Source of the DNA: Ferrimonas marina | Lineage (GTDB): Bacteria > Pseudomonadota > Gammaproteobacteria > Enterobacterales > Shewanellaceae | Assembly: GCF_900129905.1 (NCBI RefSeq) | Contig: NZ_FQXG01000005.1 | Location: 292,182-356,181 of the forward strand | Length of the DNA: 64,000 bases | Reading direction: 5' to 3' | In this document: piece after piece, positions 7,242-35,061 of the stretch | Numbering within the stretch: position 1 is the first letter of the stretch | Layout of the letters: the number at the start of each line of letters is the position of its first letter | Notes under the pieces: generated by a model | The model's database searches: none | What the model saw: the letters and a program-made list of their open reading frames with translations, nothing else | What the model was told of the DNA's origin: nothing | Position numbers and translations under genes: made by a program

Positions 7242-7242
7242 G

Positions 7243-9224: not shown

Positions 9225-9707
9225 ATGAAAACCGATCCCAATGTCATCGCCCACCTCAATACCATCCTGGGCAATGAGCTGATCGCCATCAATCAATACT
9301 TCCTTCACGCGCGCATGTACAAGGACTGGGGTCTGAAGCGGATCGCCGACAAGGAGTACCACGAGTCCATCGACGAGATGAACCACGCCGATCACCTGAT
9401 CGAGCGGATCCTCTTTCTTGAGGGCCTGCCCAACCTGCAAAGCCTGGGCAAACTGCGCATCGGTGAGCACACCAAGGAGATGCTGGAGTGCGACCTGGCG
9501 CTGGAGATGGACGCAATCCCGGACCTGCGCAACGCCATCGCCTACTTCGAAGAGGTGCGCGACTTCGTCAGCCGCGATCTGTGTCAGAACATCCTTGAGG
9601 ATGAAGAGGACCATGTTGACTGGCTGGAGACCCAACTGGAGCTGATCGACAAAGTCGGGATCCAGAACTACCAGCAAGCGCAGATGATCGAGGAAGAGGA
9701 GGGCTAG
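9225..9707 (+). CDS. bfr: Bacterioferritin
   Basis: Bacterioferritin is a 24-subunit haem-containing iron-storage shell. The 160-residue protein has all the ferroxidase ligands: Glu18 in [11 protein letters not shown], Glu51 and His54 in [11 protein letters not shown], Glu94 in the LALEMD helix, and the EDEEDHVDW pair. Met52 is the haem ligand. It follows bfd, with a bidirectional terminator 20 bp after the stop. Confidence 0.97.
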
Positions 9708-9724
9708 CGGCCTTCAGGAAGCAG

Positions 9725-9752
9725 AAAAAAGGGACGCCGCGGCGTCCCTTTG
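9725..9752. terminator. Bidirectional terminator between bfr and the zinc permease gene
   Basis: The hairpin GGGACGCCGCGGCGTCCC is preceded by six A and followed by TTTGTCGTTT. It can end bfr on the plus strand and the zinc operon on the minus strand. Confidence 0.8.
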
Positions 9753-9768
9753 TCGTTTCAGGTTAAGG

Positions 9769-11459: not shown

Positions 11460-12735
11460 GGGCCCCCAGAGTCACGTTGTATTGCAGGGTGATGATGTGG
11501 TCATCCGCTGCGGCAAACTCGGTCAGATCCTGGTGGGTGTACTGCAGACGGACCACCGAGAAGTGGCTGGGATGCCAGGCGATCATCGCCTCACTCTCTT
11601 TGATCTTGGCGTCGTGCAGGTGGGCATGCTCTTCGTGCATCAGTGCGGCACTGAGCTCACCGTAGCGCAGACCCGCAGACCAGCTGGGGTTGAACTGGTA
11701 AACACCGGACAGGTACCAGCCGTCGAAGTAGTCCGGGCCATCCTCGTGGTGCCCCTCTTCTTCGTGGCCGTGCTCCTCAAACGCATAGGGCTTATCCAGG
11801 TAGAAGTATTCGCCGCTGATGGTCAGGTGGTTGTACTTGTAGTTACCGCCCGGCGCCCACTTGTACACGAAGGAGGCGTTGAACAGGTCGCGGCCGGTAA
11901 AGGCGGCGCCGTGGCTGTGGTCATGGCCGTGGTCATCGTGGAGATGCTCGTCACCATGCTCATCGCCGTGCTCGTCGTCGTGACCGTGCTCCTCGTCATG
12001 ACCATGCTCTTCATCGTGGTCATGCTCTTCGTCATGCTCCTCATCATGATCATGCTCATCATGGTCGTCATGCTCATGCATGGCTGCCATGCCGTTCTCG
12101 TTGCGCAGCCAGGACAGGCTGGCCTGCCAGCTGTGAGACTGACCGATGTCACCACCCAGCTTGGTGTACAGGTGATAAACCCCGACCGTCTCCGGGTCCA
12201 CCAGGCCTTCCGCCATCAGCGGGTCACCACCTAGCACCTCGGCACCCAGCTCGAAGTAGAGATCGGTCGGCGCCACCCAGTTCAGGCGAACACCGTCGTC
12301 GTAGTAGTGATTACCGAGGAAGGCCCGGTACACCGCCGGACGCTCGACGAAGGCATCGGTGTGCATGTGCTGATTATTGAGGTAGCCGATATCAGACAGG
12401 AAACGACCGGCGCGCAGAGACAGGCCACCCGGCATCGCCAGGGTCTGGATAAAGGCCTCTTCCACCAGCAGCTCGGTCTCGCCATCGTGGCTTTCCAGCA
12501 CGGTGGTCAGCTTGCCGTACAGCTTGTCATCCACCGCCGCGGAGAACGCAAGCTCAGTGTGACCCAGGCCAAAACCCTCTTCACGCTCGCCCATGGGACG
12601 TTCGCCATCCTGGTAGTAGCCATCCAGTACCAGGCTGATGTTGGGGTTGGTCAGGCTTCCAGTGTTGGCCAGAGCAGGAGTAGCGAGCAGGGCAGCAACT
12701 GCAAAGGCAGTACCGTTCAACTTCATAGACATCAT
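11440..12735 (-). CDS. His-rich outer-membrane beta-barrel protein of the zinc operon
   Basis: This 431-residue protein has a signal peptide ending LLATPALA and porin-like alternating beta segments (SLVLDGYYQ, GLRYGELSAAL, HIITLQYNVTL). At about residues 215-272 sits an extreme His/Asp/Glu stretch, repeats of the type HDEEHGHDEEHGHDDEH, which very likely binds zinc at the surface or in the barrel. There is no TonB-box plug domain and the protein is too short for a TonB receptor. It heads the ZnuA/ZnuB genes and overlaps the next one. A role as zinc-scavenging porin is inference. Confidence 0.8.
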   Translation of the reverse strand: MMSMKLNGTAFAVAALLATPALANTGSLTNPNISLVLDGYYQDGERPMGEREEGFGLGHTELAFSAAVDDKLYGKLTTVLESHDGETELLVEEAFIQTLAMPGGLSLRAGRFLSDIGYLNNQHMHTDAFVERPAVYRAFLGNHYYDDGVRLNWVAPTDLYFELGAEVLGGDPLMAEGLVDPETVGVYHLYTKLGGDIGQSHSWQASLSWLRNENGMAAMHEHDDHDEHDHDEEHDEEHDHDEEHGHDEEHGHDDEHGDEHGDEHLHDDHGHDHSHGAAFTGRDLFNASFVYKWAPGGNYKYNHLTISGEYFYLDKPYAFEEHGHEEEGHHEDGPDYFDGWYLSGVYQFNPSWSAGLRYGELSAALMHEEHAHLHDAKIKESEAMIAWHPSHFSVVRLQYTHQDLTEFAAADDHIITLQYNVTLGAHGAHQF

Positions 12736-12804
12736 TCTATTTCCTAAAAAGACAATAAAGTGGGCATCGATGCGTGTGCCGATGCCGATACAACAGGGTC
12801 GGAT

Positions 12805-13140
12805 TTAGGAGTGCGCCGGCGGCGCCCGGGCGTGATATCGATGAGAATCGCCCTGCAACCAGGCGTGGATTTCAAGGGCGGGCGCAAGGGCCAGGGGGGC
12901 GTTGCCAGGCAGCAGCGGTACCTCGTGCCAAAACATCGAGGCCAACTGCTGCTGGTGGACAAAGAAGTCGCAGTGCTCTAACGCATCGTCTTGGTGACCA
13001 TGGCCGGAGGCATGGGTGTGCGCATGAGAATGATCATGATGATGGGACAGCTCATGGATCGGCGCCGCCAGCACCAACGCCAGCAGCCACAACACCATTA
13101 GAATGGATCCGACCCCTCGGGGTCTCCCTGCCCGTATCAT
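12805..13140 (-). CDS. Small His-rich protein, putative zinc chaperone
   Basis: The reading frame holds 111 residues. A hydrophobic N-terminal segment (LMVLWLLALVLAAPIHE) acts as signal or anchor. It is followed by HHHDHSHAHTHASGHGHQDD. Similar small proteins next to zinc ABC genes are annotated as zinc-uptake chaperones. The gene lies 69 bp upstream of the His-rich porin, in the same direction. The start is uncertain: no good ribosome site precedes 13140, and M15 is an alternative. Confidence 0.65.
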   Translation of the reverse strand: MIRAGRPRGVGSILMVLWLLALVLAAPIHELSHHHDHSHAHTHASGHGHQDDALEHCDFFVHQQQLASMFWHEVPLLPGNAPLALAPALEIHAWLQGDSHRYHARAPPAHS

Positions 13141-13182
13141 CGCCCTGCATCTGACTCCTTGTCATGATGGCGGCAGTGTAAC

Positions 13183-14154
13183 CTAAGCGCGAGACACTGG
13201 GAAGGCGATCACGTTTTCTATGTGATTGAGACCTTGAACCAGCATTATCAATCGATCTACCCCCAATGCGACGCCGGCACAGTCGGGCAAGCCATGACGC
13301 AGCGCGGCGATCAGGTGCTGATCGATCGGCCGCTGAGGCAGGCCCATCTGCGCTCGCTGCAGATTATCCGCCTCGAACCGGGCCAGCTGCTCATCGCCAT
13401 CGGCCAGCTCATAGAAGCCGTTGGCCAACTCGATGCCGCGGAAGTACACCTCAAAGCGATCGGCGGTGCGGGGGTCTTCTGCGCTGATCCGCGCCAGCGC
13501 TGCCTGGTTGGCGGGAAAGCCATGCACCATGCAGGGCACCTGCTGACCGATCTGCGGTTCCAGCACCATGGAGAACAGCAGCTGCTGCAACGGCGCCTCG
13601 GTCGTCTCCTGATCGCCCACATCCTGCAGGTTGTGCTCCCGGCACTTGGCCTGCAGCTGCTCAACGCTCGCTTCGAGTGGATCCAGCCCCAGCACCCGCT
13701 CAAACACTTCCGCGTAGCTCACCTTCTCCGGCTCACCGCAACCCAGGGTGGCTTGCAGCAGCTCGGCCATCTCCGCCATCAGGTCGTGATGATCAAACCC
13801 CACCCGGTACCACTCCAGCATGGTGAACTCCGGGTTGTGATGGCGGCCGGATTCCTCGTTGCGAAAGCTCTTACCCAGCTGGTAGATGCAACCGGAGCCA
13901 GCACACAGCAACCGCTTCATGTGAAACTCAGGGGAAGTCATCAGGTAGAGCGGCAGGCCATCGGCGGCGCCGGGGCCGACAAAGCGGGTTTCGAAGCTGA
14001 CCAGGTGGACGTCGGTGACCGCTGCTTGCGACAACGCCGGGGTATCCACCTCCAGTACATCGCGCTGGGCAAAAAAGGCACGGATCTTGGCGATCACCGC
14101 CGCTCGCTGACGCAGCTGCTCCCGGCTGGTGGTGGGATGCCATTCGGTGGTCAT
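13183..14154 (-). CDS. epmA: EF-P--(R)-beta-lysine ligase
   Basis: EpmA attaches (R)-beta-lysine to Lys34 of elongation factor P. It is a truncated class II lysyl-tRNA synthetase with a catalytic domain only. The 323-residue protein shows class II motif 2 ([21 protein letters not shown]) and motif 3 ([13 protein letters not shown]), and [12 protein letters not shown] between them. The ATG at 14154 follows AGGAG. It is downstream of efp on the same strand but separated by a terminator. Confidence 0.96.
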
Positions 14155-14224
14155 CACAATGCTCCTGCTTTATGGGGTGAGGGTGTCGCTGGGCTGTTGG
14201 GTTGAGCATGAGCGACGCCCAAAC

Positions 14225-14254
14225 AAAAAGAGTGGGCCGAAGCCCACTCCTGTT
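14225..14254 (-). terminator. Terminator after efp
   Basis: On the minus strand the hairpin AGTGGGC-TTCG-GCCCACT is followed by TTTTTGTTT, 16 bp after the efp stop. Confidence 0.85.
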
Positions 14255-14269
14255 TCATCTTGCCGGTGC

Positions 14270-14839
14270 TTACTTGCGCACCCGCTCAACGTATTCGCCG
14301 GTACGGGTATCCACCTTCACCACCTCACCAATGGAGATGAACAGAGGTACGCGAACCACAGCGCCGGTGCTCAGGGTGGCCGGCTTACCGCCAGTACCCT
14401 GGGTATCACCCTTCAGGCCCGGATCGGTCTCGGTCACTTCCAGCTCGACGAAGTTCGGCGGGGTCACCACGATCGGGTTGTCGTTCCACACGGTGATGGT
14501 GCACAGGTCTTGCTCGACCAGGAACTTCTCCGCGTCACCGACGGCTTTCTTATCCGCAGCGATCTGCTCGAAGGTGTCGTTGTTCATGAAGTGCCAGAAC
14601 TCACCGTCGTTGTAGAGGTAAGCCATCTGCAGATCCATGACGTCGGCGCCTTCCACGCTCTCGCCAGACTTAAAGGTCTTCTCCAGGGTCTTGCCGCTGA
14701 TCAGCTTCTTGATCTTCACGCGGTTGATGGCCTGACCCTTACCCGGTTTGAACAACTCGTTCTCAACGATGTTGCACGGCTCGCCGTCCAACATTATCTT
14801 TAGCCCGGATTTAAACTCGTTGGTAGAATAAGAAGCCAT
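14270..14839 (-). CDS. efp: Elongation factor P
   Basis: EF-P relieves ribosomes stalled at polyproline stretches. The 189-residue protein has the KOW-like N domain and two OB domains. Lys34, the modification site, sits in the loop KPGKGQA. The presence of this lysine together with epmA and epmB marks the beta-lysyl pathway rather than rhamnosylation (Arg32). It is divergent from epmB, with 43 bp between the starts. Confidence 0.98.
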
Positions 14840-14882
14840 TTCTGCTCTCTTCCAGCTGTTATAAGTTGATGTTAACCGGCTA

Positions 14883-15911
14883 ATGATAACCCGAAATCCC
14901 GCCCCTTTGCACCGACCTCAAGCCAGTTGGCAACAGGATTTGGCCTCGGCCTTCAGCGATCCTGTGGCACTGCTGACCCATCTGCGGATCGATCCGGCCC
15001 AGTTTGGCGAAGGCTTGGCCGCACGCCGGCTGTTTCCGATGCGTGTGCCCCGGCCCTACGCCAATCGAATCACCCCCGGCGATGCCCAGGATCCGCTGCT
15101 GCTCCAGGTGCTGCCGCTGGGCGCTGAGTTCCTGGCTCAGCCCGGTTTTGGCGTCGATCCCACCGGCGAGCAGGGGGGCGATACCCCGGGCCTGCTGCAC
15201 AAATACCGCAGCCGTGTTCTGCTGATGCTGCGCGGCGGCTGCGCCATCAATTGCCGCTACTGCTTTCGCCGTCACTTCCCCTACCAGGATCACAAGGTGG
15301 GCCGTGCCGAGCTGGAGCAGGCAGTAGCCTATCTCAATGCCGATCCCCAGATTAATGAGCTGCTGCTGTCCGGTGGCGATCCGCTGATGGCCAAGGACGA
15401 CCACCTGGCCCAGCTGTTCGAGCGTCTAACCCAGGCCAAGCACCTCAAGCGGGTGCGTTTCCATACCCGCCTGCCGGTAGTGATCCCAAACCGGGTCACC
15501 GATGCGCTGGTGACCCTGCTGGAGCAGGCGCCCTGGCCGGTAGTGATGGTGCTGCACATCAATCACCCCCGGGAGATCGACGACGAGGTGGTCGCTGCCA
15601 TGCAGCGCTTGCGGGCGGCCGGTGTCACCCTGCTCAACCAGGGGGTGCTGCTCAAGGGGGTCAATGACGATGCCCAGGTGCTGGCCCAGCTGTCCGAGCG
15701 GCTGTTTGAGGCGGGGATCCTGCCCTACTACCTGCATCAGCTGGACAAGGTGCAGGGAGCGGGGCATTTCGAGGTCAGTGATGAGCAGGCCCGGGCGCTG
15801 ATGGCGCAACTGCTGGCCACCCTGCCCGGTTTCCTGGTGCCCCGCCTGGTGCGGGAACTGCCGGGCCACAGTGCCAAGACGCCGATTGATCTGCGCCTCG
15901 AGCCCGCCTAG
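14883..15911 (+). CDS. epmB: EF-P beta-lysylation protein, lysine 2,3-aminomutase-like
   Basis: EpmB is a radical-SAM, PLP-dependent enzyme that converts L-alpha-lysine to (R)-beta-lysine for EF-P. The 342-residue protein has the CxxxCxxC cluster in [17 protein letters not shown], the [13 protein letters not shown] motif, and the PLP-lysine region near [15 protein letters not shown]. It is divergent from efp. No epmC hydroxylase is seen in this window. Confidence 0.96.
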
Positions 15912-15949
15912 GATGGGTCGCCCAATTTTACTCACTGATAAGGATGTCT

Positions 15950-16510
15950 ATGGCCACGCTGCTGTTTGTGACCGATATCTGGGGCCAGCACGCCAGTCTG
16001 GATCCCTTGCTGTCGCGCCTGGAGGCGCAGTTTGACCAAGTTGAGGTGCTCGATCCCTACAGCGGTCAGCGCTTCGCCTTTGAGGACGAGGCCCAAGCCT
16101 ACGAGTACTTCCAGCGCCGCTGTACCGCCCGTATCTACCAGCAGAAATTGGCAGAACGACTGAGCCAGGGTAGCGAGCCTTTGTTGCTGCTGGCCTTCAG
16201 TGCCGGTGCCAATGCCGCCTGGCCGCTGCTGAGCCAGCCCGAGCTGGCCAGCCGAGTAACCCGCGCGTCACTGTGCTACGGCAACCAGATCCTGGCTCAG
16301 CCGACGCTAACGCCGCAAAGCCCAACCCAGTTGCTGCTGTGCCGGGACGATGCTGGGGTGCTGGAACACCAGGCCCCGCTGGCGCGGGCCTGCCAGGTTG
16401 AGCTGAGCGAGGCCGGCCATGGCTTTATCAACCCCCGCAGCCCCCACTTCGACGCCAACGCCGCTGACACCGCGCTGGCTGACGCTGTGCAGTGGCTGCA
16501 GCAGCGCTGA
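15950..16510 (+). CDS. Alpha/beta hydrolase, dienelactone-hydrolase-like
   Basis: This is a short alpha/beta hydrolase of about 186 residues. The nucleophile elbow AFSAGAN is near residue 84, an Asp lies in LLCRDDAG and the catalytic His in SEAGHGFINPRS. These make a plausible Ser-Asp-His triad of the dienelactone hydrolase family. The ATG at 15950 is preferred because AAGGA sits at a proper distance; the ATG at 15944 is too close. It follows epmB by 38 bp. The substrate is unknown. Confidence 0.8.
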   Translation: MATLLFVTDIWGQHASLDPLLSRLEAQFDQVEVLDPYSGQRFAFEDEAQAYEYFQRRCTARIYQQKLAERLSQGSEPLLLLAFSAGANAAWPLLSQPELASRVTRASLCYGNQILAQPTLTPQSPTQLLLCRDDAGVLEHQAPLARACQVELSEAGHGFINPRSPHFDANAADTALADAVQWLQQR

Positions 16511-16535
16511 TCCACCGCGGGCAACAAAAAAAGAG

Positions 16536-16885
16536 CTCTGCCCTAGTTAGGTGTTGAATACACCTTACTCATTCAATCCAACAGAACTGTGTGACCCGCC
16601 GGCTCTTCGCCGACTTGGAGTCGCCCGAACGAAGTGGCCAAAGCCCAGGTTGAAGGCCAGGACGGCCTGAGTGGCTTGCGGAGACAGGGACGTCGACTCA
16701 AGCCTGAGCCGCAGACTTTGGTAACGAAAGTGAGGGTTAGCGACGATTGGAGGCAAACGGGGGTTCCAAGGGGGCGGAACGCCCCTTTGGTTGCAGCCGG
16801 CAACCCGGCAAAGCTATTTACAGCCAATGGTGAGAAAAATCGTCAGGCTAACTAGAACAACAGTTAATTCGGACAAAGCACAAAA
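16536..16885. repeat. Dispersed 350-bp structured repeat, copy A
   Basis: This intergenic block is closely matched by 34713-35061 over its whole length, with only scattered substitutions. It contains a hairpin CTTCG...CGAAG enclosing GACT/AGTC. A strong hairpin GGGGC-GGAAC-GCCCC sits near 16770-16790, and a GCCGG/CCGGC hairpin follows it. The ends carry a degenerate inverted repeat of the type TCTGTCC(N)AATT. Short frames inside it are not conserved as proteins. It lies between the hydrolase gene and the terminator of the TraB-family gene. Confidence 0.85.
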
Positions 16886-16910
16886 CAGCGGGGCATCATG
16901 CCCCGCTGTT
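16885..16910 (-). terminator. Terminator of the TraB/GumN gene
   Basis: The hairpin ACAGCGGGGC-ATGAT-GCCCCGCTGT is followed by TTTTG on the minus strand, 18 bp past the stop. Confidence 0.8.
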
Positions 16911-16927
16911 GCTATCTGCCCCAGACT

Positions 16928-17782
16928 CTAGCGCTGGCAATCGCTCTGCCAGCAGTCGGTCACCTGGACACCGGCTTTGCCCAGCAGGCTGGGGATCGAG
17001 CCCTCACCCACCAGGTGGCCCGCCCCCACGGCAATGAACAGGTGGTCGTGCTGCTGCATCAGAGCCTGGATCCCCTCACTCATGCCTACGTTGCGATCCA
17101 GCATCAGCTTCTGCCACAGCTCGGGGTGGTTCTGCAGCCCCTCCAGCATCTGCTCTGCCAGCTCCTCCTTATCGCCCTCGCGCCAGGCCCCCACCAACGC
17201 CTCGATCTCCTCGGCGCCCGAAGTCTCCAGGGTGGCCTTGAGCATGGCGTGGGAGGCCTCGTCGCTAAAGCTGTTGAACACCTCCAGCTGGAACGCCATC
17301 CCCTCCAGCTCCAGCACCGGCCTGTCCTTAAGTTGCGCCATCAGCTGCTGCTCCACCCCAAGATCCGGCCGGAAGCCCGCCTGGGCCATCATCCCCATGG
17401 CAATCTGGGAGCTGAGCATCCAGGGGCGCAAGCGCGGATCGCAGTGCAGCTGCTGGGCCTGGCAAAACTCCTGCAGCTGGGTAGCCAGCTCCGCTGGCAG
17501 CGGCGAAGTGGCCAGCATGTTCTGCATCACCAGGGCCTGGATATTAGGGTCGTTGGGATCCGCCTCCAGCACCAGCTGTTCGGCACCGGACAGCGCCTGC
17601 TCGATGCGCTCGGGCATGGGGTAGAAATCCGGCAGCCCCACATGAATAGAACCCAGCAGCCAGGCCTGGTGCCCTTGGTAATCCAACCGGTAGAACACCG
17701 GCTTATCCTCTGGTGCGGCCCAGCCCGGCATAGCCAGTAAGCCCAACCAAGCCGCTAGCAGCAACGTCCAGCCTCGTTTCAT
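16928..17782 (-). CDS. TraB/GumN family protein
   Basis: The 284-residue protein has a signal peptide (LAAWLGLLAMPGWA) and the family signatures: AWLLGSIHVG near the N-terminus, LVLEADPND, and FIAVGAGHLVGEGSIPSLL near the C-terminus. The conserved GSIH and GAGH histidines suggest a metal-dependent hydrolase of the TIKI/TraB type. The biochemical role in bacteria is not settled. A possible disulfide lies in the tail CWQSDC. It is a single gene with its own terminator. Confidence 0.85.
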   Translation of the reverse strand: MKRGWTLLLAAWLGLLAMPGWAAPEDKPVFYRLDYQGHQAWLLGSIHVGLPDFYPMPERIEQALSGAEQLVLEADPNDPNIQALVMQNMLATSPLPAELATQLQEFCQAQQLHCDPRLRPWMLSSQIAMGMMAQAGFRPDLGVEQQLMAQLKDRPVLELEGMAFQLEVFNSFSDEASHAMLKATLETSGAEEIEALVGAWREGDKEELAEQMLEGLQNHPELWQKLMLDRNVGMSEGIQALMQQHDHLFIAVGAGHLVGEGSIPSLLGKAGVQVTDCWQSDCQR

Positions 17783-17949
17783 TCCATTCTCTCCTGATCA
17801 ATTTGCCCAGTGGGCGTTCACTTCCATGTTTGTGTTACCAAAAAAGCGCCACGGCAACCCATACAGGCCACCGCTGCCAGAGAAACAGCGGATTTGAGTC
17901 GCTTCCCCTGGCTTTCTATAATCTGCCCCAGAAATTTGGGGGAGCCATC

Positions 17950-18258
17950 ATGTCCTACGACACCATCATTGAACAATACCGTACCAGCCTGCAGGCCGCC
18001 TACCGCCAGGCGCTGGATGCCGACAGCCTGCTCGAGGCGATGCAAAAAGAGGGCAAGGGCAAGTTTGCTGCCGTGTTCCGCGAAGACGCCGGCTTCAGCT
18101 GCCAGGCCAATCGCTTCACCCCCTACGTTAAAGAGCTGGGGGAGCAGCTGCAAGCCTTCGAGGCTGAGCCAAACCCAGAGCAGCTACCTGAAATGGTTAG
18201 AAAATTAGAGCTGTTGCTGACCACACTGCAGCAGCTTCGGCAGTCGCTGAAAGGATAA
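17950..18258 (+). CDS. Conserved small helical protein, function unknown
   Basis: This is a 102-residue cytoplasmic protein, almost all predicted helix (DTIIEQYRTSLQAAYRQAL, LELLLTTLQQLRQSLKG). A central segment is GKGKFAAVFREDAGFSC. I do not recognise a named family, though similar short proteins seem present in related marine genera. GGGGGAGCC precedes the ATG at 17950; the frame is open further upstream, but without a good ribosome site. It shares a bidirectional terminator with the DUF3016 gene. Confidence 0.7.
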   Translation: MSYDTIIEQYRTSLQAAYRQALDADSLLEAMQKEGKGKFAAVFREDAGFSCQANRFTPYVKELGEQLQAFEAEPNPEQLPEMVRKLELLLTTLQQLRQSLKG

Positions 18259-18286
18259 AAAAGCCGCCCTCCCGGGCGGCTTTTTC
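18257..18286. terminator. Bidirectional terminator
   Basis: AAAAAAGCCGCCC-TCCC-GGGCGGCTTTTT is symmetric. It serves the small plus-strand gene and the convergent DUF3016 gene, and overlaps both stop regions. Confidence 0.88.
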
Positions 18287-18815
18287 AGTTACTGGCCAGC
18301 TGGTCTGGGAGCGATTTGCGTACCCAGTCATCCAGCATGCGCAGCTCATAGCGCAGCGATTCGTTGCGATAGCGGCTCGGCGGTCGGGAGTCGAAGCCCA
18401 TATCGCGGATGTTCTCTTCACCTTGGGTCACCACCTGACCGGCGGGGTCCTTCACCTCGTAGTTAAAGGCGATACGGGGTGGATAGACGCTCTTGATGAT
18501 GCGGATATCACTGGTAGTGCGGCCCATGGAGGGGCGTACATCCCCGGCCAGATCCAGATCCGTGACGGTGAAGGTGATGGTCTGCCCCTCGGTCAGCATC
18601 GGCTCGATCTGCTTTTGCAGGTGCTTGCCCAAGGTGGCAAAGACGTGATTCTGATAGCGGGACTGGATCCCGGTGCCGGTGCGCACGTCGGTGTAATCAT
18701 CCGGCTGCTGCCAGATGACGGTGACCGCGCCGTCCTGCGTCGGCCACTCCGGTGCTTCTTCTGCCAGGGCATTGCCACTGACCAATGCCGCCGCCAGCCA
18801 TAACAGTCTCTTCAT
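18285..18815 (-). CDS. DUF3016 domain protein
   Basis: This is a 176-residue exported protein. The ATG at 18815, behind GAGGAG, gives the signal peptide MKRLLWLAAALVSGNALA. The mature part contains VTVIWQQPDDYTDVRTGTG and FTVTDLDLAGDV, as in DUF3016 proteins known from Shewanella and Xanthomonas. The function is unknown and it is probably periplasmic. It is a single gene. Confidence 0.82.
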   Translation of the reverse strand: MKRLLWLAAALVSGNALAEEAPEWPTQDGAVTVIWQQPDDYTDVRTGTGIQSRYQNHVFATLGKHLQKQIEPMLTEGQTITFTVTDLDLAGDVRPSMGRTTSDIRIIKSVYPPRIAFNYEVKDPAGQVVTQGEENIRDMGFDSRPPSRYRNESLRYELRMLDDWVRKSLPDQLASN

Positions 18816-19014
18816 TGCCCACTCCTCTACAGGTGACTTCATACAAGGTGTTAGAAGCGGCGCAGGGAAAAAGATTCAAAAAGATTGCGACCGGGCCGCG
18901 CTCTGTTCAAGAATCGTACAAGCTTTACCACAATGCGCCCTCCACCTTGGTGAATTACCGCCATTTTTTAAACTCTAAGTGTAGATAAAACAAGCCTTAG
19001 CAGTTCGCAGGCAT

Positions 19015-19044
19015 AAAAAAACGGACGCCGAAGCGTCCGTTTGT
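19015..19044 (-). terminator. Terminator after groEL
   Basis: On the minus strand ACGGACGC-TTCG-GCGTCCGT is followed by TTTTTTTA, 20 bp past the groEL stop. Confidence 0.9.
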
Positions 19045-19061
19045 TGCAGCCGGGGCTGGGC

Positions 19062-20723
<1,662 letters not shown>

Positions 20724-21277: not shown

Positions 21278-22651
21278 ATGGGAAAAGAGCTGGATCTGCT
21301 GAATGGCTCCATTGCCCGTACCCTGTTTCGCCTGTCCCTGCCTAACCTGTTTGCCGTCTGCTGCCTGCTGCTGTTCCAGCTGACCGACGCCTTCTTTATC
21401 TCCCGCCTCGGCACCGAGCCCCTAGCCGCCTTCGGCCTGACCCTGGCACCCACCCTGATGACCATCTCCATCGCCCTCGGACTGGGCACCGGCATGGCGG
21501 TGCAACTGGGCCGCCTGCTGGGCCAGGGCCGGCGGCGTGAAGCGGAGCAGTTCTGCAGCCATGGTCTGCTGCTGGCGCTTTTGGTGATCAGCGTGGTGGG
21601 TGCCGTCGGCTGTCTCACCATCGACCCGATGTTCCGCCTGCTCGGCGCCTCAGAATCGCTGTTGCCGATGGTGCGCGAGTACATGCTGGTGTGGTACCTG
21701 GGGGCGGCCTTTATGGTGTTACCGATTGTCGGTAACCAGGCCATTCGGGCCACCGGCAACACCCTGACCCCGGCCCTGGTTACCGGCATTGTTGCCCTGC
21801 TTAACGCCCTGCTCGATCCGCTGTTCATCTTTGGCTTCGGCCCGGTGCCGGCCTTTGGCCTGCAGGGGGCGGCCATCGCCACCGTGCTGGCATGGATGGT
21901 GGCTTTCGTCGTGGCCGGTGCCATGCTGCTGCGCCGCCACCGGCTGCTGGCCCGCCCCTGCCGTCGCCGCTTGCGCCCCCACTGGCAGGTGCAACTGCAC
22001 ATCGCCCGCCCGGCCACCCTCTCCTACCTGCTCAATCCCCTGGCCAACGCGGTGATCATCGCCCTGCTGGCGCGCATTGACACCCACGCGGTGGCGGCTT
22101 TCGGTGCCGCCAACCGGATCGAATCGCTGCTGATCATCGGCGTCACCGCGTTGTGCGGCGCGCTGGCGCCCTTTATGGCGCAAAACCTGGGGGCCGGTCA
22201 GAGTGCCCGGGCCAACCGCGCCCTGATGGGCAGCATCCACGTCATCCTGCTGCTGCAGCTGGCGGTCTACCTCGTGCTCTGGCCCAACATCGACGCCCTG
22301 GCCGGGCTGTTTGCCACCGATCCGCAAACCCACAGCTACCTGAGCCAATACCTGCTGTGGGTGCCACTGGGTTACGGTGCCCTGGCCATCGTCATCATGA
22401 TGGTGGTGGCCTACAACGCCCAGCGTCAGCCGATGCGTGCCCTGCTGCTCAGCGTCGCCCGGGTGGCGGCCCTGTTGCCACTGGCCTGGCTGGCCACCCG
22501 GCTGGGCGGTGCCCAGGGACTGTTCCTGGCCATGGCGGTGATCAACCTGGTGTTTGGTCTCTACTGCTACCGCCTGGCCCGCCAGCGCCGCCAACAGGGT
22601 CAGGGCACCGCGATGCCCGCTGGCTACCTGTCTGAGCTGCCCGGTCCCTGA
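21278..22651 (+). CDS. MATE family multidrug/cation antiporter
   Basis: This is an inner-membrane exporter of the MATE family, driven by Na+ or H+. It has about 457 residues and twelve transmembrane helices in two halves. The first half opens IARTLFRLSLPNLFAV. The second shows the parallel LHIARPATLSYLLNPLANAVI. The ATG at 21278 is chosen over the upstream TTG 21230, which adds an odd Cys-rich stretch. The substrate cannot be told. It is divergent from groES. Confidence 0.9.
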   Translation: MGKELDLLNGSIARTLFRLSLPNLFAVCCLLLFQLTDAFFISRLGTEPLAAFGLTLAPTLMTISIALGLGTGMAVQLGRLLGQGRRREAEQFCSHGLLLALLVISVVGAVGCLTIDPMFRLLGASESLLPMVREYMLVWYLGAAFMVLPIVGNQAIRATGNTLTPALVTGIVALLNALLDPLFIFGFGPVPAFGLQGAAIATVLAWMVAFVVAGAMLLRRHRLLARPCRRRLRPHWQVQLHIARPATLSYLLNPLANAVIIALLARIDTHAVAAFGAANRIESLLIIGVTALCGALAPFMAQNLGAGQSARANRALMGSIHVILLLQLAVYLVLWPNIDALAGLFATDPQTHSYLSQYLLWVPLGYGALAIVIMMVVAYNAQRQPMRALLLSVARVAALLPLAWLATRLGGAQGLFLAMAVINLVFGLYCYRLARQRRQQGQGTAMPAGYLSELPGP

Positions 22652-22804
22652 AACCTTTTTCTGCGCTAAGGCTTTTTTTTTACACGGGATCCCAACTTGG
22701 GCCGTCGCTTTGGCGGAGACCGGCAAACATGACCCAGCCGAGGTTTTTCCCCCGCCAGCGACGCTAATTTGAGCAGCAGGAAGCGTCACAAAAGGATGGG
22801 AAAC

Positions 22805-24214
22805 ATGTTCTGGATCCACTTCGCTCTACTGCTTGGCATCATCTTTATCGGTATTCGCTACGGCGGCATGGCCCTGGGCCTGCTCGGTGGCCTCGGGGTC
22901 TCGATCCTGGCCTTCGTGTTTGGCGTGGTGCCCGGCTCGCCGCCGGTCAGCGTGATGCTGATCATCCTGGCAGTGGTGGCCGCCTCGGCCGCGCTGGAGG
23001 TCACTGGTGGCCTGACCCTGCTGGTACAGGTTGCCGAACGGCTATTGCGTCGCCGGCCTGAAAAGGTGGCCTACCTGGCCCCGGTGTGCACCTGGAGCCT
23101 AACCACCCTGGTGGGGACTGGCCACTCGGTGTATCCGCTGCTGCCGGTGATCTACGACGTGGCCTACAGCAAGGGGATCCGTCCGGAGCGGCCGATGGCC
23201 ATCGCCACCGTTGCCTCGCAGATGGGGATCACCGCCAGCCCCATCGCCGCGGCTGCCGCCGTGGTGCTGGCCACCACCGCCACCAACAACGTCTCAGTCA
23301 GCCTGCTGGATATTCTTTCGGTCACCATCCCCGCCACCCTGATGGGGGTATTGATTGCCGCCACCTGGAGCGTCAAGCGTGGGTTGGAGCTGGCCGACGA
23401 CCCCGAGTTCCAGGCACGCCTGGCGGATCCTGACCAGCGCGCCTACATCGAAGGCGGTCAGGCCACCACCCTGGACAAGGCCGTGACCCGGGAAGCCAAG
23501 ATCGGCCTGGGCGTATTCCTCGCTGGCATCGCCGCCATCGTGGTGGTGGCGCTGTTCCCGGCGCTGCTGCCGGTGACCGAATCCGGCAAGCCGTTGTCCC
23601 TGTCGGTGGCGCTGCAGTTCATGATGCTGACGGTGGGGGGCCTGATCCTGCTCAGCACCCGCATCAAGACCGCCGACATCCCCAACTCCAGCGTGTTCAA
23701 GGCCGGCATGACCGCGGTGATCACCGTGTTCGGTATCGCCTGGTTCAGCGACACCATCGTGGCTGCCCACAAGCCTTACATCATCGAGCAGATCAGTGAC
23801 ATGGTGGCGGCGGCCCCCTGGACCTTCGCCATCGCCATGTTCGCGGTGTCGATGTTCCTCAAGAGTCAGGCCGCTACCCTGACGGTGATGCTGCCGATGG
23901 GCTTTGTGCTGGGGGTGGATCCCAAGGTGATGATCGGCGTCCTGCCGGCCTGCTACGCCTACTTCGTGTTCTGCTTCTACCCCAGCGATCTGGCGGCCAT
24001 CAACTTTGACCGCTCCGGTACCACCCGCATCGGCCGCTTTATCTTCAACCACAGCTTTATGCTGCCGGGGCTGATTGGCGTGGGCAGCGCCACGGTGATC
24101 GGTTATCTGCTGGCCACCACCCCCATCGGCTGGTTCGTGGTGGTGGGGATCTGGGCCCTGCTCACCTACGTCGGTCAGTTCTCCCGCTACGGCCAGGTGA
24201 AGGCCACCGCCTAA
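22805..24214 (+). CDS. dcuB: Anaerobic C4-dicarboxylate transporter, DcuB-like
   Basis: This carrier exchanges external fumarate or malate for internal succinate during fumarate respiration. The 469-residue protein has about twelve hydrophobic helices. Dcu-family segments include RYGGMALGLLGGLGVS, LVGTGHSVYPLLPVIYDV and ASQMGITASPIAAA. The ATG at 22805 follows a GGATGGG purine stretch. It fits with the frd operon at 44-47 kb. The last 38 coding bases and the terminator are duplicated exactly at 25953-26033. Confidence 0.9.
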   Translation: MFWIHFALLLGIIFIGIRYGGMALGLLGGLGVSILAFVFGVVPGSPPVSVMLIILAVVAASAALEVTGGLTLLVQVAERLLRRRPEKVAYLAPVCTWSLTTLVGTGHSVYPLLPVIYDVAYSKGIRPERPMAIATVASQMGITASPIAAAAAVVLATTATNNVSVSLLDILSVTIPATLMGVLIAATWSVKRGLELADDPEFQARLADPDQRAYIEGGQATTLDKAVTREAKIGLGVFLAGIAAIVVVALFPALLPVTESGKPLSLSVALQFMMLTVGGLILLSTRIKTADIPNSSVFKAGMTAVITVFGIAWFSDTIVAAHKPYIIEQISDMVAAAPWTFAIAMFAVSMFLKSQAATLTVMLPMGFVLGVDPKVMIGVLPACYAYFVFCFYPSDLAAINFDRSGTTRIGRFIFNHSFMLPGLIGVGSATVIGYLLATTPIGWFVVVGIWALLTYVGQFSRYGQVKATA

Positions 24215-24257
24215 GCCATCTGCCCAACAAAAAAGGGACGCCTCGGCGTCCCTTTTT
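24177..24257. repeat. 81-bp direct repeat, left copy (dcuB 3' end plus terminator)
   Basis: The block is identical base for base to 25953-26033. It covers the last 38 bases of dcuB, its stop, and the terminator hairpin GGGACGCCTCGGCGTCCC with five T. The flanking bases differ at once on both sides (C against T on the left; TT against GC on the right). Confidence 0.95.
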
Positions 24258-24260
24258 TTG
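24230..24260 (+). terminator. dcuB terminator
   Basis: The hairpin GGGACGCC-TC-GGCGTCCC carries A-rich 5' and seven-T 3' flanks, and lies inside the direct repeat. Confidence 0.9.
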
Positions 24261-24303
24261 TGTTCAGAATAACCCGATTTATTGGTCTTGTTCTCTGATT
24301 TAA

Positions 24304-24414
24304 TTAGAGAAATATTCCAGTTAAAAAGAAAGCAGCGACGAACACCAAAACCCCAACGATCATTACGGGATCTTCTTTTCGCACAATTCGGTAAAACTTC
24401 TTAATCAAACTCAT
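24304..24414 (-). CDS. 36-residue single-span membrane peptide
   Basis: This short frame starts at ATG 24414, behind AAGGA, and ends TAA at 24304. The start is basic (MSLIKKFYRIVRKEDP) and is followed by one strongly hydrophobic span (VMIVGVLVFVAAFFLTGIFL). It is the last frame of the minus-strand set inside the element. The charge pattern predicts an N-in membrane peptide. It could be a type I-like toxin, a small regulator or chance; no family is recognised. Confidence 0.45.
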   Translation of the reverse strand: MSLIKKFYRIVRKEDPVMIVGVLVFVAAFFLTGIFL

Positions 24415-24440
24415 AGTCAGCATCCTTCAGAGCTATATGT

Positions 24441-24941
24441 TTAATTTAGCAAGGCACAATGGCGAAGCTGCTTAGCCAACTCCTTGCCGGCCCGGTGTTC
24501 AGAGAACGCCACCAGCCAGCCGGCCAGCGTATCCTTTGGCAGATGATCAGGAGCCTGAGCCAGCCACTGCACAAAGCCAGCATTATCGCCGGCCAGTTGA
24601 ACCAAGTGCTTAGCCATCACAGCCCACTCCTGGGGAGAGCGCGGCAACCAGGTAGCGTCCAATAACAGATCCAGCGCACCACGCACCGCCCACCAAGGGC
24701 AATCACCGCCTTTCTTCAACCTGGCACCCTGGCCCGTGGTCATGGCGTGCTGCCCAGCCCAGCCGGCCAGGTTATTGCCATTGAGCGAAGTCCGTTGGGT
24801 GTAGTCCTGAGATTGACACCGTGCTAACAGCGCCTCGGCACACTCGGCCTGGGTCATGGATTGCTGCCGTGCTTGGAACAACAGCGAATCGATCACTAGG
24901 GGACGGCCCCCCAGCTCCAGACGATAAAAGAGATCAGCCAT
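24441..24941 (-). CDS. Unknown element protein, paralogue of the 25334-25783 product
   Basis: This is a 166-residue cytoplasmic protein of unknown function. Its C-terminal half (CPWWAVRGALDLLLDATWLP, then QEWAVMAKHLVQ and a final WLVAF) lines up with the first gene's APMWARRAALELLIAHGWTP, KEWARFAKLWVQ and WLLAA. The two are therefore homologous. Tryptophans and the WAxR-AL-LL core are the shared features. The ATG overlaps the stop of the middle gene by 8 bases (ATGGCTGA). No signal peptide or membrane span is seen. Confidence 0.75.
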   Translation of the reverse strand: MADLFYRLELGGRPLVIDSLLFQARQQSMTQAECAEALLARCQSQDYTQRTSLNGNNLAGWAGQHAMTTGQGARLKKGGDCPWWAVRGALDLLLDATWLPRSPQEWAVMAKHLVQLAGDNAGFVQWLAQAPDHLPKDTLAGWLVAFSEHRAGKELAKQLRHCALLN

Positions 24942-25341
24942 CAATGGCTTCCTCTATCCCGTTCGCCGCCAGAATCTCATCAATGTTGAATTCTTTCTGG
25001 AGGGCATGAGAAGGCCAAAGCTGGTCAACCGCTTTGCGAGTGACGTAGTAGTTGGCTTTCACGCCAGCGCTAGGGTTGGGGGCGAAGCTGCCATCCGGTC
25101 GGACAAAGCGAACTTTCACCAGCCCTTCCCGTTCCAGTTCCTTCGCCGTGCGGCCCACGTTGGTAGCGTGATGATTCACTGAATTAAACATACCTGCCGT
25201 GGCCTCGGCCAGTTCGTCGCGGGTCAGCTTGAGTTCTGGGCTGTCCACCAGGCGGGCCATCATTGCCATCGCAAGCTGGGGCCTGGTGGTTCGGAACGCT
25301 TCTTTGACCAGGTAATAAAGGTGAGTTCTTGTTTCAGCCAC
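24934..25341 (-). CDS. Probable winged-helix DNA-binding protein of the element
   Basis: This 135-residue protein is the middle gene of three. The segment LKLTRDELAEATAGMFNSVNHHATNVGRT... reads as a helix-turn-helix. It is followed by a wing (GLVKVRFVRPDGSF, YYVTRKAVDQLW). This is a typical layout for a MarR- or replication-type winged helix, but no family is recognised. It starts at GTG 25341 inside the previous gene's stop (GTGGCTGA). It could regulate the operon through the palindrome at 25841 (inference). Confidence 0.7.
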   Translation of the reverse strand: MAETRTHLYYLVKEAFRTTRPQLAMAMMARLVDSPELKLTRDELAEATAGMFNSVNHHATNVGRTAKELEREGLVKVRFVRPDGSFAPNPSAGVKANYYVTRKAVDQLWPSHALQKEFNIDEILAANGIEEAIDG

Positions 25342-25783
25342 GGGCTTTCCCTTCTTTTATTTGCTTGTTCGCCCTGAACAGGCGGTCGGACTCCAGCGCG
25401 GCAAGCAGCCAGGCCTGGGCCATCACGGGATCAAAGCCACTGGGCAATTCTTCCAGCAATCGTTCCAGATTGGCCCGGCGCTGACGCTGGACCCACAACT
25501 TAGCAAATCGCGCCCACTCTTTGGCGGTGGTGGGGGTCCAACCGTGGGCGATCAGCAACTCTAGCGCCGCTCGGCGGGCCCACATGGGGGCTTTCTTTTC
25601 CTTGTTCCACTCCACCAGCGCTAAACCTGGTACGGGCTCACGGGGGCCCACAAAGCCATTTTCAATGGCGGTGTTGGTCAGCAGTTCGGTCAGCTCGGCC
25701 CTTGAGCGGGAATCGCGTTTCATCAGATCAACAAACACATCGGTCGGGCGATCATCGAAGCTTTCAAATACAGACGGGATCAT
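25334..25783 (-). CDS. Unknown element protein, first gene of the operon
   Basis: The start ATG 25783 has AGGA at 8 bases; the ATG at 25792 lacks a site. The 149-residue protein has an acidic N-terminus (ESFDDRPTDVFVDLMKRD). Its core is APMWARRAALELL and KEWARFAKLWVQ, shared with the third gene. The end is basic (NKQIKEGKARG). No known family is recognised. It is the promoter-proximal gene, with an AT-rich leader and the 14-bp palindrome upstream. Confidence 0.75.
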   Translation of the reverse strand: MIPSVFESFDDRPTDVFVDLMKRDSRSRAELTELLTNTAIENGFVGPREPVPGLALVEWNKEKKAPMWARRAALELLIAHGWTPTTAKEWARFAKLWVQRQRRANLERLLEELPSGFDPVMAQAWLLAALESDRLFRANKQIKEGKARG

Positions 25784-25840
25784 GGGGTGCATCCTGCAAA
25801 TTGCATCATGAAAAAATCAAACAAAGTGATTAAAATTCAA

Positions 25841-25854
25841 ATGTTTGCAAACAT
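25841..25854. promoter_or_regulatory. Perfect 14-bp palindrome, candidate operator
   Basis: ATGTTTGCAAACAT is fully self-complementary and sits in AT-rich DNA 58 bp upstream of the first element gene. It is the right place and shape for a dimeric repressor site. Confidence 0.5.
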
Positions 25855-25952
25855 AAATCGAGGGCTTGATTATTTCTCCCGATGTCGAAAGTGTCAAAGC
25901 AAACAGACCAATGGCTCCCACTAACTATGCAGTCGGCTGAATGGGCTTTATT

Positions 25953-26033
25953 AGTTCTCCCGCTACGGCCAGGTGAAGGCCACCGCCTAAGCCATCTGCC
26001 CAACAAAAAAGGGACGCCTCGGCGTCCCTTTTT
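25953..26033. repeat. 81-bp direct repeat, right copy
   Basis: This is an exact duplicate of 24177-24257, including the dcuB stop and terminator. Here it follows no dcuB gene. It abuts fxsA and can still serve as its convergent terminator. Confidence 0.95.
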
Positions 26034-26046
26034 GCTACCGCAAGGC

Positions 26047-26574
26047 TTACTCCTTGCGCTCGTAGTCCCCATCGATGGTCTGGCCGTTTTGGCTGCCGCC
26101 ACCGCGGTGGGGATCATCGCCAAACGGCGACTGGCGGTCATCACCGAAAGGCGGTTGCTGCGGACCGGCCCCGAAGCCACCGCCAAAGCCGGCGCCCATG
26201 CCGCCGCCGTGCACCACCCGCAGCTGCATCCGCGCCATCAGGTAGCGGGCAATTGGCGCACGGGTGGCCGGAGTGAGGATCAGCAGGCCAAACAGGTCGG
26301 TGACAAAGCCCGGGGTCACCAGCAGTACCCCGGCCACCGCCAACAGCATCGCTTCGACGATCTGCTGACCGGGCAGTTCGCCCTGGTTGAGGCGCTGCTG
26401 CACGTTCATCATGGTGCTCAGCCCCTGGCTGCGTACTAGTGACGCCCCCACGGCGGCGGTCAGCAGCACCAGGGCAATGGTGGTCATGGCGCCGAACGCA
26501 TTACCCACCTGGATCAGCACGTAGATCTCCACAATGGGCATCACCGCAAACAGCAAAAACAGATAAAAGACCAC
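26047..26574 (-). CDS. fxsA: FxsA family membrane protein
   Basis: FxsA is a cytoplasmic-membrane protein. In E. coli, overproduction suppresses F exclusion of phage T7. The 175-residue protein has the family core: LFLLFAVMPIVEIYVLIQVG, GASLVRSQGL, and GVLLVTPGFVTDLFGLLIL. A Gly/Pro/Asp-rich tail follows, with the repeat PPFGDDRQSPFGDDPH. The start is GTG 26574. The fxsA/groESL neighbourhood is conserved, but here dcuB, a MATE gene and the element intervene. Confidence 0.93.
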   Translation of the reverse strand: MVFYLFLLFAVMPIVEIYVLIQVGNAFGAMTTIALVLLTAAVGASLVRSQGLSTMMNVQQRLNQGELPGQQIVEAMLLAVAGVLLVTPGFVTDLFGLLILTPATRAPIARYLMARMQLRVVHGGGMGAGFGGGFGAGPQQPPFGDDRQSPFGDDPHRGGGSQNGQTIDGDYERKE

Positions 26575-26847
26575 CGGTACCTCGAGAAATTATTGGGTGT
26601 GATGAAACTCAGATGGGGGTTGTCGGGTCTGATTTCAAGCCGAAGCGGTCGTCGCCGTCGCCTGAGCCTCGCTCGGGGAGGGGTGCGGGACTGTGACATT
26701 CGGTGGGGATTATTTTTCAGGCTTGGGGTACTCTGCCTGTTCGCCATTGAGCGAGCCGGTCGTCGGGGCCGTATCGACCCTCAATAGAGAGGCGATGCCC
26801 GGCCGCTGAGCCTTGCCGTATCATGGAATTTCGCAAACGCTGTGACT

Positions 26848-28590
26848 ATGAAAAGAATACTGACCATACTCCTGCTCACGCTGACCAGCCTTCAGGCCAG
26901 CGCCAGCTTCTCCTTCCTCAAGCAGGAGCCGCAGGTCCTTCCGGTTGACCAGGCCTACACCTTTGATTTTGCCCAGCAGGACAATCAGCTGCAGCTGAGC
27001 TGGAAGATGGCGGGCAAGGATTACTACCTCTACCAAGAGAAGTTTGAGCTGGCCATCGACGGCGAAGCGGTGGTGGGCGAGATCCGCTACCCGCAGCCAG
27101 AGAACCATTTCGACGATTGGTTCGGCGACCAGCCGGTCTACTTCGACCAGGTCACCCTGACAGTGCCGATCCTCGAATCCAGCAAGGACGCCACCATCAC
27201 CGTGACCTACCAGGGCTGCCTGGACGGGATCCTCTGTTACCCGCCGACCCGCGAGACCATCTACCTCAGTGAGGTGGCGGCCAACGACGGCGTGCTGCCG
27301 GATGCCCCGGCGCAAACCGGCCCGCAAACCCAGCAGGACGGCCTGGCCAGCATGCTGGCGTCCGACTCCCTGGTGCTGCCGCTGCTGACCCTGTTTGGCC
27401 TCGGTATCCTGCTGGCGTTCACCCCCTGTGTGTTCCCCATGTACCCGATCCTGACCTCCATCATCGGCGGCCAGGGCAACAAGCTGTCCACCGGCAAGGC
27501 CTTCGCCCTGTCGATGACCTACGTCCAGGGCATGGCGCTGACTTACACCCTGCTGGGTCTGGTGGTGGCTTCCGCCGGGATGAAGTACCAGGCGGCGCTG
27601 CAAAGCCCGGCGGTACTGATCGGTCTGGCGGTGCTGTTCGTGGTGCTGTCGCTGTCGATGTTCGGGGTCTACAACCTGCAGTTGCCCAGCAGCCTGCAGA
27701 ACCGCCTCAACAACGCCCAGAACCAACAGAAGGGCGGCTCCTTCGTTGGCGTGTTCGTGATGGGCCTGATCTCCGGCCTGGTGGCCTCCCCCTGCACCAC
27801 TGCCCCGCTCACCGGCGTGCTGCTGTACGTGGCACAAAGCGGTGACCTGGTACTGGGTGGTGCGGCACTGTACGCCCTCTCCATGGGCATGGGCCTGCCG
27901 CTGCTGCTGCTGGGCACCTCCGGTGGCAAGCTGCTGCCCCGTGCCGGCGCCTGGATGGAAACCATCAAGCACGTGTTCGGCTTCCTGATGATCGCCGTGG
28001 CACTGATGATGCTGGACCGCCTCTACGCCGGCCTGGTGCTCGACCTGCTGTGGGCCCTGTGGGGCATCACCCTGGCTGGCTACCTGCTGCTGGCCAACAA
28101 GCGCACCCAGTTCAACTGGCTCAAGGTCAGCCGCACCGTGGTGCTGGGTCTGGCCCTGCTGGGCTCGGTCTCCTATGGCATGCAGGCGGTGATGAACCGC
28201 GATGCGGTCAACCCGGCCCACGATTTGGCCTTTGTCCACATCAAGACCCTGGCGGATCTGGAGCGCGAGGTGGCCAAGGCCAACGCCGAAGGCAAGGCAG
28301 TGATGCTGGATCTATACGCCGACTGGTGTGTGGCCTGTAAGGAGTTCGAGCACAAGACCTTCCCGCAGCCCAATGTGCGTGAACGCACCGACACCATGGT
28401 GATGTTGCAGGCGGACGTGACCCGCAATGACGCCGAGGATATCGAGCTGCTGGAGGCGTTCGACGTGCTTGGCCTGCCCACCCTGCTGTTCTTCTCCGCC
28501 GACGGTGAAGAGCTGAGCCAGCTGCGCGTCACCGGCTTTATGGCGGCCCAGCCGTTTGCCAACCACCTGGACCAGGTGCTCAAGCTGTAA
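26848..28590 (+). CDS. dsbD: Thiol:disulfide interchange protein DsbD
   Basis: DsbD carries electrons from cytoplasmic thioredoxin to the periplasm for DsbC, DsbG and cytochrome c maturation. The 580-residue protein has a signal peptide and an N-terminal alpha domain with the Cys pair in GCLDGILCYP. An eight-span core follows with the two catalytic cysteines in FTPCVFPMYP and ASPCTTAPLTG. The C-terminal thioredoxin domain has ADWCVACK. It starts at ATG 26848. A terminator follows. Confidence 0.96.
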   Translation: MKRILTILLLTLTSLQASASFSFLKQEPQVLPVDQAYTFDFAQQDNQLQLSWKMAGKDYYLYQEKFELAIDGEAVVGEIRYPQPENHFDDWFGDQPVYFDQVTLTVPILESSKDATITVTYQGCLDGILCYPPTRETIYLSEVAANDGVLPDAPAQTGPQTQQDGLASMLASDSLVLPLLTLFGLGILLAFTPCVFPMYPILTSIIGGQGNKLSTGKAFALSMTYVQGMALTYTLLGLVVASAGMKYQAALQSPAVLIGLAVLFVVLSLSMFGVYNLQLPSSLQNRLNNAQNQQKGGSFVGVFVMGLISGLVASPCTTAPLTGVLLYVAQSGDLVLGGAALYALSMGMGLPLLLLGTSGGKLLPRAGAWMETIKHVFGFLMIAVALMMLDRLYAGLVLDLLWALWGITLAGYLLLANKRTQFNWLKVSRTVVLGLALLGSVSYGMQAVMNRDAVNPAHDLAFVHIKTLADLEREVAKANAEGKAVMLDLYADWCVACKEFEHKTFPQPNVRERTDTMVMLQADVTRNDAEDIELLEAFDVLGLPTLLFFSADGEELSQLRVTGFMAAQPFANHLDQVLKL

Positions 28591-34712: not shown

Positions 34713-35061
34713 CTCTGTCCTAATTGGGTTCTGAACTCTCCATAGTCATTCAATCCAACAGAACTGTGTGCCCCACCAGCTCTTCGCCGACTTGAAGTCG
34801 CCCGAGCGAAGTAGCCAAAGACCAGGCTGAAGGCCAGGACGGCCTGAGTGGCTTGCGGAGACAGGGATGTCGACTCAAGCCAGAGCCGCAGACATTGGTT
34901 ACGAGAGAGAGGATTAGCGACGATTGGAGGCAAGCGGGGGTTCCAAGGGGGCGGAACGCCCCTTTGGTTGCTGCCGGCAACCCGGCAAAGCTATTAGCAA
35001 AGAATGATAGGAGGAATCATCAGGTTTACAGGAGAAATAGATAAATTGGACAGGACACAAA
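34713..35061. repeat. Dispersed 350-bp structured repeat, copy B
   Basis: This is the second copy of the block at 16536-16885, in the same orientation and nearly the same length. The stems CTTCG/CGAAG, GACT/AGTC and GGGGC/GCCCC are unchanged while nearby loop bases differ. The ends carry CTGTCCTAATT and, inverted, CTGTCCAATTT. A 12-bp direct repeat CACAAAAAAGCC flanks this copy (34702-34713 and 35056-35067). As with copy A, it sits just outside the terminator of a minus-strand gene. Confidence 0.85.

Follow-up and report, generated by a model that had tools for sequence, protein, structure and literature searches.

The known systems nearest to the locus reported here are found among chromosomal elements that exploit plasmid partition and among the partition operons of plasmids themselves. 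SGI1 is presented as an integrative mobilizable element that hijacks the parABS system of IncC plasmids and carries parS copies and Sci (PMC10954446). Plasmid type I parA-parB operons, such as those of pLVPK and of Serratia, Rahnella, Yersinia and Vibrio, contain a third gene whose family also includes two genes of the present element. We analyzed a 64,000-nucleotide stretch of Ferrimonas marina DNA (NZ_FQXG01000005.1, positions 292,182 to 356,181; the whole of this stretch is termed the window), in which three open reading frames (ORF1 to ORF3) and a short peptide frame lie between two 81-bp direct repeats of the 3′ end of a dcuB-like transporter gene. On balance, and with a probability of roughly 0.52, we read the insert as an orphan partition-accessory operon of plasmid or integrative and conjugative element (ICE) origin that was recently captured by a recombination event duplicating 81 bp.

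The two repeat copies occupy positions 24177-24257 and 25953-26033, 1776 bp apart from start to start, and are identical at 81/81 positions, which confirms an earlier sequence-only reading of this DNA. The left copy comprises the last 38 nucleotides of dcuB (22805..24214, plus strand), including its TAA stop codon at 24212-24214, followed by a spacer and a hairpin terminator with an A-run and a T-run, while the terminator in the right copy adjoins the 3′ end of the conserved and convergent neighbor fxsA (26047..26574, minus strand); both gene names are those of the sequence-only reading. The dcuB frame is whole beside the insertion, as that reading had also held, and the placement of the repeats at a gene end resembles attL and attR. 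Across 456,000 bases of this contig, with 25-mers of at least 50 copies excluded, no perfect direct repeat with a spacing of 200-20,000 is longer than the 81-bp repeat, and the duplication is therefore not due to chance; the next-longest, of 79 bp, looks tRNA-like by eye. The 1695-bp interior (24258..25952, minus strand) has a GC content of 54.0% compared to 63-64% in the flanks, and is missing between the MATE gene and fxsA from each of the other 13 genomes in the genus. These observations support the insertion of AT-richer, apparently foreign DNA at the dcuB end, and the event looks recent, as had been proposed, given the 81/81 identity and the absence from every relative. A tandem duplication was rejected because the doubling is limited to 81 bp and the 1776-bp unit is single.

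Perfect repeats of this kind could also have been created during assembly, if the contig had broken within a dcuB-terminator-fxsA arrangement and a 1.7-kb piece had been misplaced between overlapping ends. The genome is an 18-contig draft in which three pairs of contig ends do overlap exactly, by 77, 89 and 95 bases. However, 81 matches none of these lengths, no N occurs at the junctions, and these are internal to a contig of 482 kb, so that we regard such an artefact as very improbable.

Other repeats were noted in passing. A 79-bp perfect direct repeat at window positions 1-79 and 249-327 resembles, by eye, part of tandem tRNA genes, and a contig repeat with a spacing of 358 likewise lies beside tRNA genes by eye; further contig repeats have spacings of 217-218, judging from the repeat list. 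Direct repeats of 31-43 bp at window positions 56307-59051, with spacings of 969 and 1850, probably fall within or between large coding genes. Finally, two similar, non-identical intergenic repeat copies at window positions 16651-16794 and 34828-34971 lie 18,177 bp apart; by eye their true extent is longer, and TTCAATCCAACAGAACTGTGTG precedes both.

The link to plasmid partition comes from ORF3 (152 aa; 25334..25792, minus strand) and ORF1 (166 aa, ATG start; 24441..24941, minus strand), which are paralogues of each other (blastp 6e-8 and 6.6e-7 in two comparisons). In tblastn searches of 72,556 plasmid records with E up to 1, ORF3 matched 762 records and ORF1 matched 683, all below 60% identity, with at least 80% query coverage in 27 and 22 records, respectively. 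We inspected ten of the matching regions, of which the ORF3 search had supplied seven and the ORF1 search three. Immediately upstream of the match, each of them had a ParA-type gene and a gene of ParB or KorB type; in six, a small gene of 106-110 aa followed the third gene with a four-base overlap. A third-gene profile composed of seven proteins (six from plasmids and one from an ICE-like locus), with no window sequence among them, recovered ORF3 at 2.1e-35, ORF1 at 1.1e-16 and five further proteins at 1.1e-17 to 8.1e-7, the best of 5000 shuffled decoys reaching 0.15. On the strength of these profile matches, ORF3 and ORF1 are assigned to the unnamed third-gene family of par operons. The four minus-strand frames described in the sequence-only reading are thus all there, while the label "unknown" no longer suits ORF3 and ORF1. 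On the Vibrio plasmid loci L064 and L065, two family members and one more small gene stand behind parB, and at locus L109 (9234-10109) the second family member is naturally fused to the last small gene (blastp 3e-57 and 1.6e-22). Because L109 joins the second member to the last gene of the L064/L065 trio, such gene trios may be suggested to act together.

No recombinase, transposase or replication family was matched by ORF1-3 in Pfam, PHROGs or PADLOC, in line with the earlier statement that the element contains no integrase, transposase or replication protein. The sole library matches of ORF1-3 up to E 10 were ORF2 with MarR_2 (0.07) and HTH_Crp_2 (0.16), and unknown PHROGs with ORF3 (0.25) and ORF2 (0.071). 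A known defence system was rejected as PADLOC gave no match. PDB sequence searches returned nothing convincing; a profile of ORF2 plus the plasmid proteins matched ribosomal protein uS7 at 0.0016, over 38 positions only. AlphaFold models had a mean predicted local distance difference test score of 71 for ORF3 and 69 for ORF2, too weak for fold assignment. Neither ParA nor ParB occurs among the frames of the element, and ParB_N has a single match in the genome, a 356-aa frame on another contig (C4). Thus, the ParB_N search of the genome gave no sign of a resident plasmid with such a ParB, ParA having had no genome-wide search.

As judged from its sequence, the interior is a self-contained minus-strand operon that extends from a promoter-like sequence to the duplicated terminator. 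Its order on the minus strand is promoter, palindrome, ORF3, ORF2, ORF1, 36-aa peptide and left-copy terminator. The σ70-like promoter (TTGACA-17-AATAAT; 25869..25897, minus strand) matches the consensus at 11/12 positions, and the promoter scan of the region found two promoter-like sites where 0.8 were expected. Between it and ORF3 lies the perfect 14-bp palindrome ATGTTTGCAAACAT (25841..25854), a candidate operator. ORF2 (135 aa, GTG start; 24934..25341, minus strand) overlaps ORF3 and ORF1 by eight bases each. A 36-codon frame downstream (24304..24414, minus strand) would encode a membrane-like peptide that has no Pfam match; by eye, the peptide contains a single hydrophobic stretch, and AAGGA can be recognized as its ribosome-binding motif. 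The left-copy hairpin is flanked by an A-run and a T-run on both sides, and for this reason the left-copy terminator could serve both directions and end dcuB as well as the operon; the terminator scan of the region did not list this hairpin.

ORF2 may be the winged-helix partner of the third gene, akin to the small gene located just after the third gene on plasmids. The identity to the plasmid small genes is 17-26%, and a winged-helix profile placed ORF2 first among 5010 sequences at E 0.016, with the best decoy at 0.57. Plasmid tblastn with ORF2 gave no match. In the nine plasmid loci scanned for palindromes (L028-L034, L064 and L065), ATTTCGCATGCGAAAT or, in Vibrio, ATTTTGCATGCAAAAT was present upstream of parA in all nine, and palindromes also followed the last gene in seven, the exceptions being the two Vibrio loci; the outer palindrome bases vary. 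From this placement, ATTTCGCATGCGAAAT and ATTTTGCATGCAAAAT are likely parS. The parS-like palindrome core TTYGCATGCRAA had no occurrence in the 64-kb window.

With the family alignments and E up to 0.001, a match was obtained in 1 of 146 genomes of the host family, which is the host itself, in at least 4 of 394 genomes of the order and at least 4 of 369 of the class, where at most 9-10 candidates were scored per genome. The families of genomes G446 and G311 had matches in 7 of 197 and 5 of 198 genomes, respectively. These genome sets overlap, and the host genome is counted in the family, order and class searches. We searched twelve genome loci by profile for parA, parB, the third gene and the winged-helix gene; parA-parB stood directly upstream in eight and did not in four (L067, L106, L107 and L109). 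At L067 (7341-8128), the third gene and a winged-helix-family gene occur without parA-parB in an ICE-like cluster, whose surrounding frames we read as SSB, topoisomerase and TraD-like. The surroundings of L106 were read as transposase- and recombinase-like frames. No direct repeats of at least 22 bp were present in the stretches of L107 (9.5 kb) or L106 (10 kb). Orphan family members therefore exist elsewhere, with no such repeats seen at the two loci scanned, L106 and L107. Distant chromosomal matches outside the twelve loci were obtained in G776 (E 1.3e-10) and G868 (6.3e-10), with no parA, parB or third-gene tblastn match in 14 kb; matches in G159 (3.4e-4) and G782 (2.1e-4), which lie inside frames of 1107 and 952 codons, were set aside. 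Scans of genome contigs with ORF2 and ORF3 and of viral contigs with ORF3, ORF2 and ORF1 found no relative, by a method that detects close relatives only, and phage tblastn with ORF3 and ORF2 gave no match. Our literature searches found no paper on this operon, a statement that extends only to those searches.

An alternative origin is a larger plasmid or ICE that a tyrosine recombinase had integrated into the 3′ end of dcuB and that internal deletion reduced to a remnant of one operon. The family rides on plasmids, 228 of the 762 ORF3-matching plasmids being typed as conjugative, and it occurs beside ICE-like genes at L067 and among transposase- and recombinase-like frames, as read, at L106. 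However, no recombinase remnant is left, the surviving piece is a complete promoter-to-terminator unit, and it is improbable that a foreign attP would be identical over 81 bases that span a junction peculiar to this locus. We consider this origin unlikely.

The case for a private junction comes from the site in relatives. Each of the other 13 genomes in the genus has MATE, fxsA and dsbD together, and dcuB had no match in the 8-kb MATE/fxsA stretch of any of them, so that the 13 relatives lack both the element and dcuB at this place. Because dcuB is missing there in all 13, it is evidently a lineage-specific arrival between MATE and fxsA. Its nearest relative in the genus, in G002 (65%), lies elsewhere and has another terminator (score 18). 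Separately, the MATE alignments to the 13 relatives were seen to end 12-24 residues before the MATE C-terminus (window 22600-22807), and no relative-like terminator follows MATE by eye, consistent with dcuB entry at the MATE 3′ end. The MATE/fxsA gaps of the relatives were compared to the 43 bases of the repeat that lie beyond the stop codon of dcuB, and G002 scored 58 (34 bases) with these repeat-internal bases only, or 65 when the fxsA coding end was included (four relatives). The other relatives scored 40 (G011), 29 (G003) and 12-17 (remaining ten), against a background with a best score of 30 among 47 hairpin-like sequences and of 39 among 11,996 100-base windows in 300 kb of the host contig. 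Terminator turnover may be fast. The match in G002, a single relative, supports a terminator that is probably ancestral to the MATE/fxsA gap, and the 81-bp repeat then looks chimeric, with the end of dcuB joined to a terminator that originally belonged to the fxsA side. The dcuB end, stop and terminator are duplicated as the sequence-only reading had described, whereas the terminator is probably not dcuB's own. If the repeat is chimeric, it was probably copied from this locus, and it is unlikely that all 81 bp came from a foreign attP. This is the main argument against foreign site-specific integration, as attP would need to match the private junction in full.

The earlier proposals of site-specific integration and of a satellite mobilized in trans also found no support in searches for further copies. 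No second copy of the 81-bp repeat was detected in the genome itself, where other matches were short terminator hairpins, and the 13 relatives likewise yielded no copy beyond such hairpins. The family profile found no member in these relatives. An exact 28-mer search of IMG/VR for the junction and a DNA search of plasmids and phages with E up to 0.01 yielded no match. A minimal satellite, that is, a 1776-bp circle with an 81-bp site that borrows a recombinase from another element, would explain why the repeats are perfect, why they sit at a gene end and why that gene is whole. Nevertheless, no second site or repeat-sharing element was found in the genome, nothing similar occurs in the 13 relatives, IMG/VR has no exact junction match and the repeat is apparently chimeric; we therefore rejected the satellite as first choice and judge it quite improbable. 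A transposon or insertion sequence was rejected as well, since the interior has no terminal inverted repeats (12/40 positions at its ends match) and ORF1-3 matched no transposase family in Pfam or PHROGs. An 81-bp duplication is longer than usual for such elements. A structured RNA was rejected as Rfam gave zero matches in 22500-27000 at gathering scores.

For the captured orphan operon, which we prefer, the following course may be envisaged. The operon would have been captured in the gap between two convergent genes, dcuB and fxsA, and the insertion itself would have generated the repeat out of local sequence, in place of a foreign attP bringing it in. Candidate routes are a staggered break that was filled in, template switching with resumption 81 bp upstream, and one-end homology-assisted illegitimate recombination with sister-strain DNA. 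The last process is described for naturally competent bacteria and for E. coli conjugation (PMC3240628). Once in place, the operon could repress itself, with ORF2 together with ORF3 and ORF1 forming a complex that binds DNA at the palindrome and acts on their own promoter. As ParA, ParB and parS are missing, the operon would be unable to partition anything by itself, and recombination between the repeats would delete it and restore dcuB-terminator-fxsA. A related possibility, since the sequence-only reading had also raised integration of a circle by homology, is that a circle carrying the dcuB end and the terminator, once excised from a sister strain, entered by a single homologous crossover. 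This would give perfect identity without a recombinase and, with a conspecific donor, would fit a chimeric repeat. However, no replication family was recognized among ORF1-3, 81 bp of homology is little for RecA to cross over efficiently, and the origin of the arrangement is only moved one step back. We hold it to be unlikely, more so than a remnant.

Several points weigh against capture of an orphan partition-accessory operon. Both the succession of events and the empty dcuB-fxsA site are reconstructions based on one strain of the species. No locus with the same three genes in the same order was found, and no such donor; occurrence of the genes in an ordinary operon elsewhere, raised earlier as evidence against an element, applies to the gene family (parA-parB-third gene-small gene) and not to this order. 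The native-terminator argument leans on G002, with G011 borderline and 11/13 relatives at background, and the private-junction argument is weaker if the element came from a conspecific. For ORF2, hhalign to the small-gene family gave E 0.0033 but a probability of 9.6, and with the winged-helix profile the last gene of the Vibrio trio reached E 1.3 in L065 and was not among the matches listed in L064. The ORF3 and ORF2 models matched no PDB entry with E up to 0.001. In addition, the window palindrome ATGTTTGCAAACAT is unlike the plasmids' ATTTCGCATGCGAAAT or ATTTTGCATGCAAAAT.

The locus matters in three respects. The ORF3 family is present in the par operons carried by plasmids of many genera, yet nine members searched against Pfam and NCBIfam gave no convincing family (best DUF7059, E 0.0031, for two of the nine). 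A natural orphan copy without ParA, ParB and parS offers a clean system for the role of these proteins themselves. The apparently chimeric repeat also cautions that long perfect gene-end repeats need not be att sites. By analogy to SGI1 (PMC10954446), interference with a plasmid par operon is conceivable. At its most speculative, and in our view distinctly improbable, the small cassette would act on its own as an incompatibility or anti-plasmid unit, namely the regulatory half of a par operon copied into the chromosome, which mis-regulates or poisons the partition of incoming matching plasmids and that RecA gains or loses at the 81-bp homologies between strains.

Compared to known systems, the element resembles SGI1 (PMC10954446) as a chromosomal element with partition-related parts that might affect a plasmid par operon, and is unlike it in having no parS-like site and no recombinase. 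The PICMI phage satellites of Vibrionaceae (PMC10803314) are likewise small marine chromosomal elements with few genes; the element has no meaningful PHROG match, and the two were compared on few features. Relative to the plasmid par operons, the element has no parA, parB or parS-like palindrome, places the paralogue after ORF2, adds a membrane-like peptide and is chromosomal, between repeats. It shares with them the overlapping small gene after the third gene (6/10 regions), as ORF2 follows ORF3, and the Vibrio operons of L064 and L065, with two family members and a small gene, are similar to the trio of the element.

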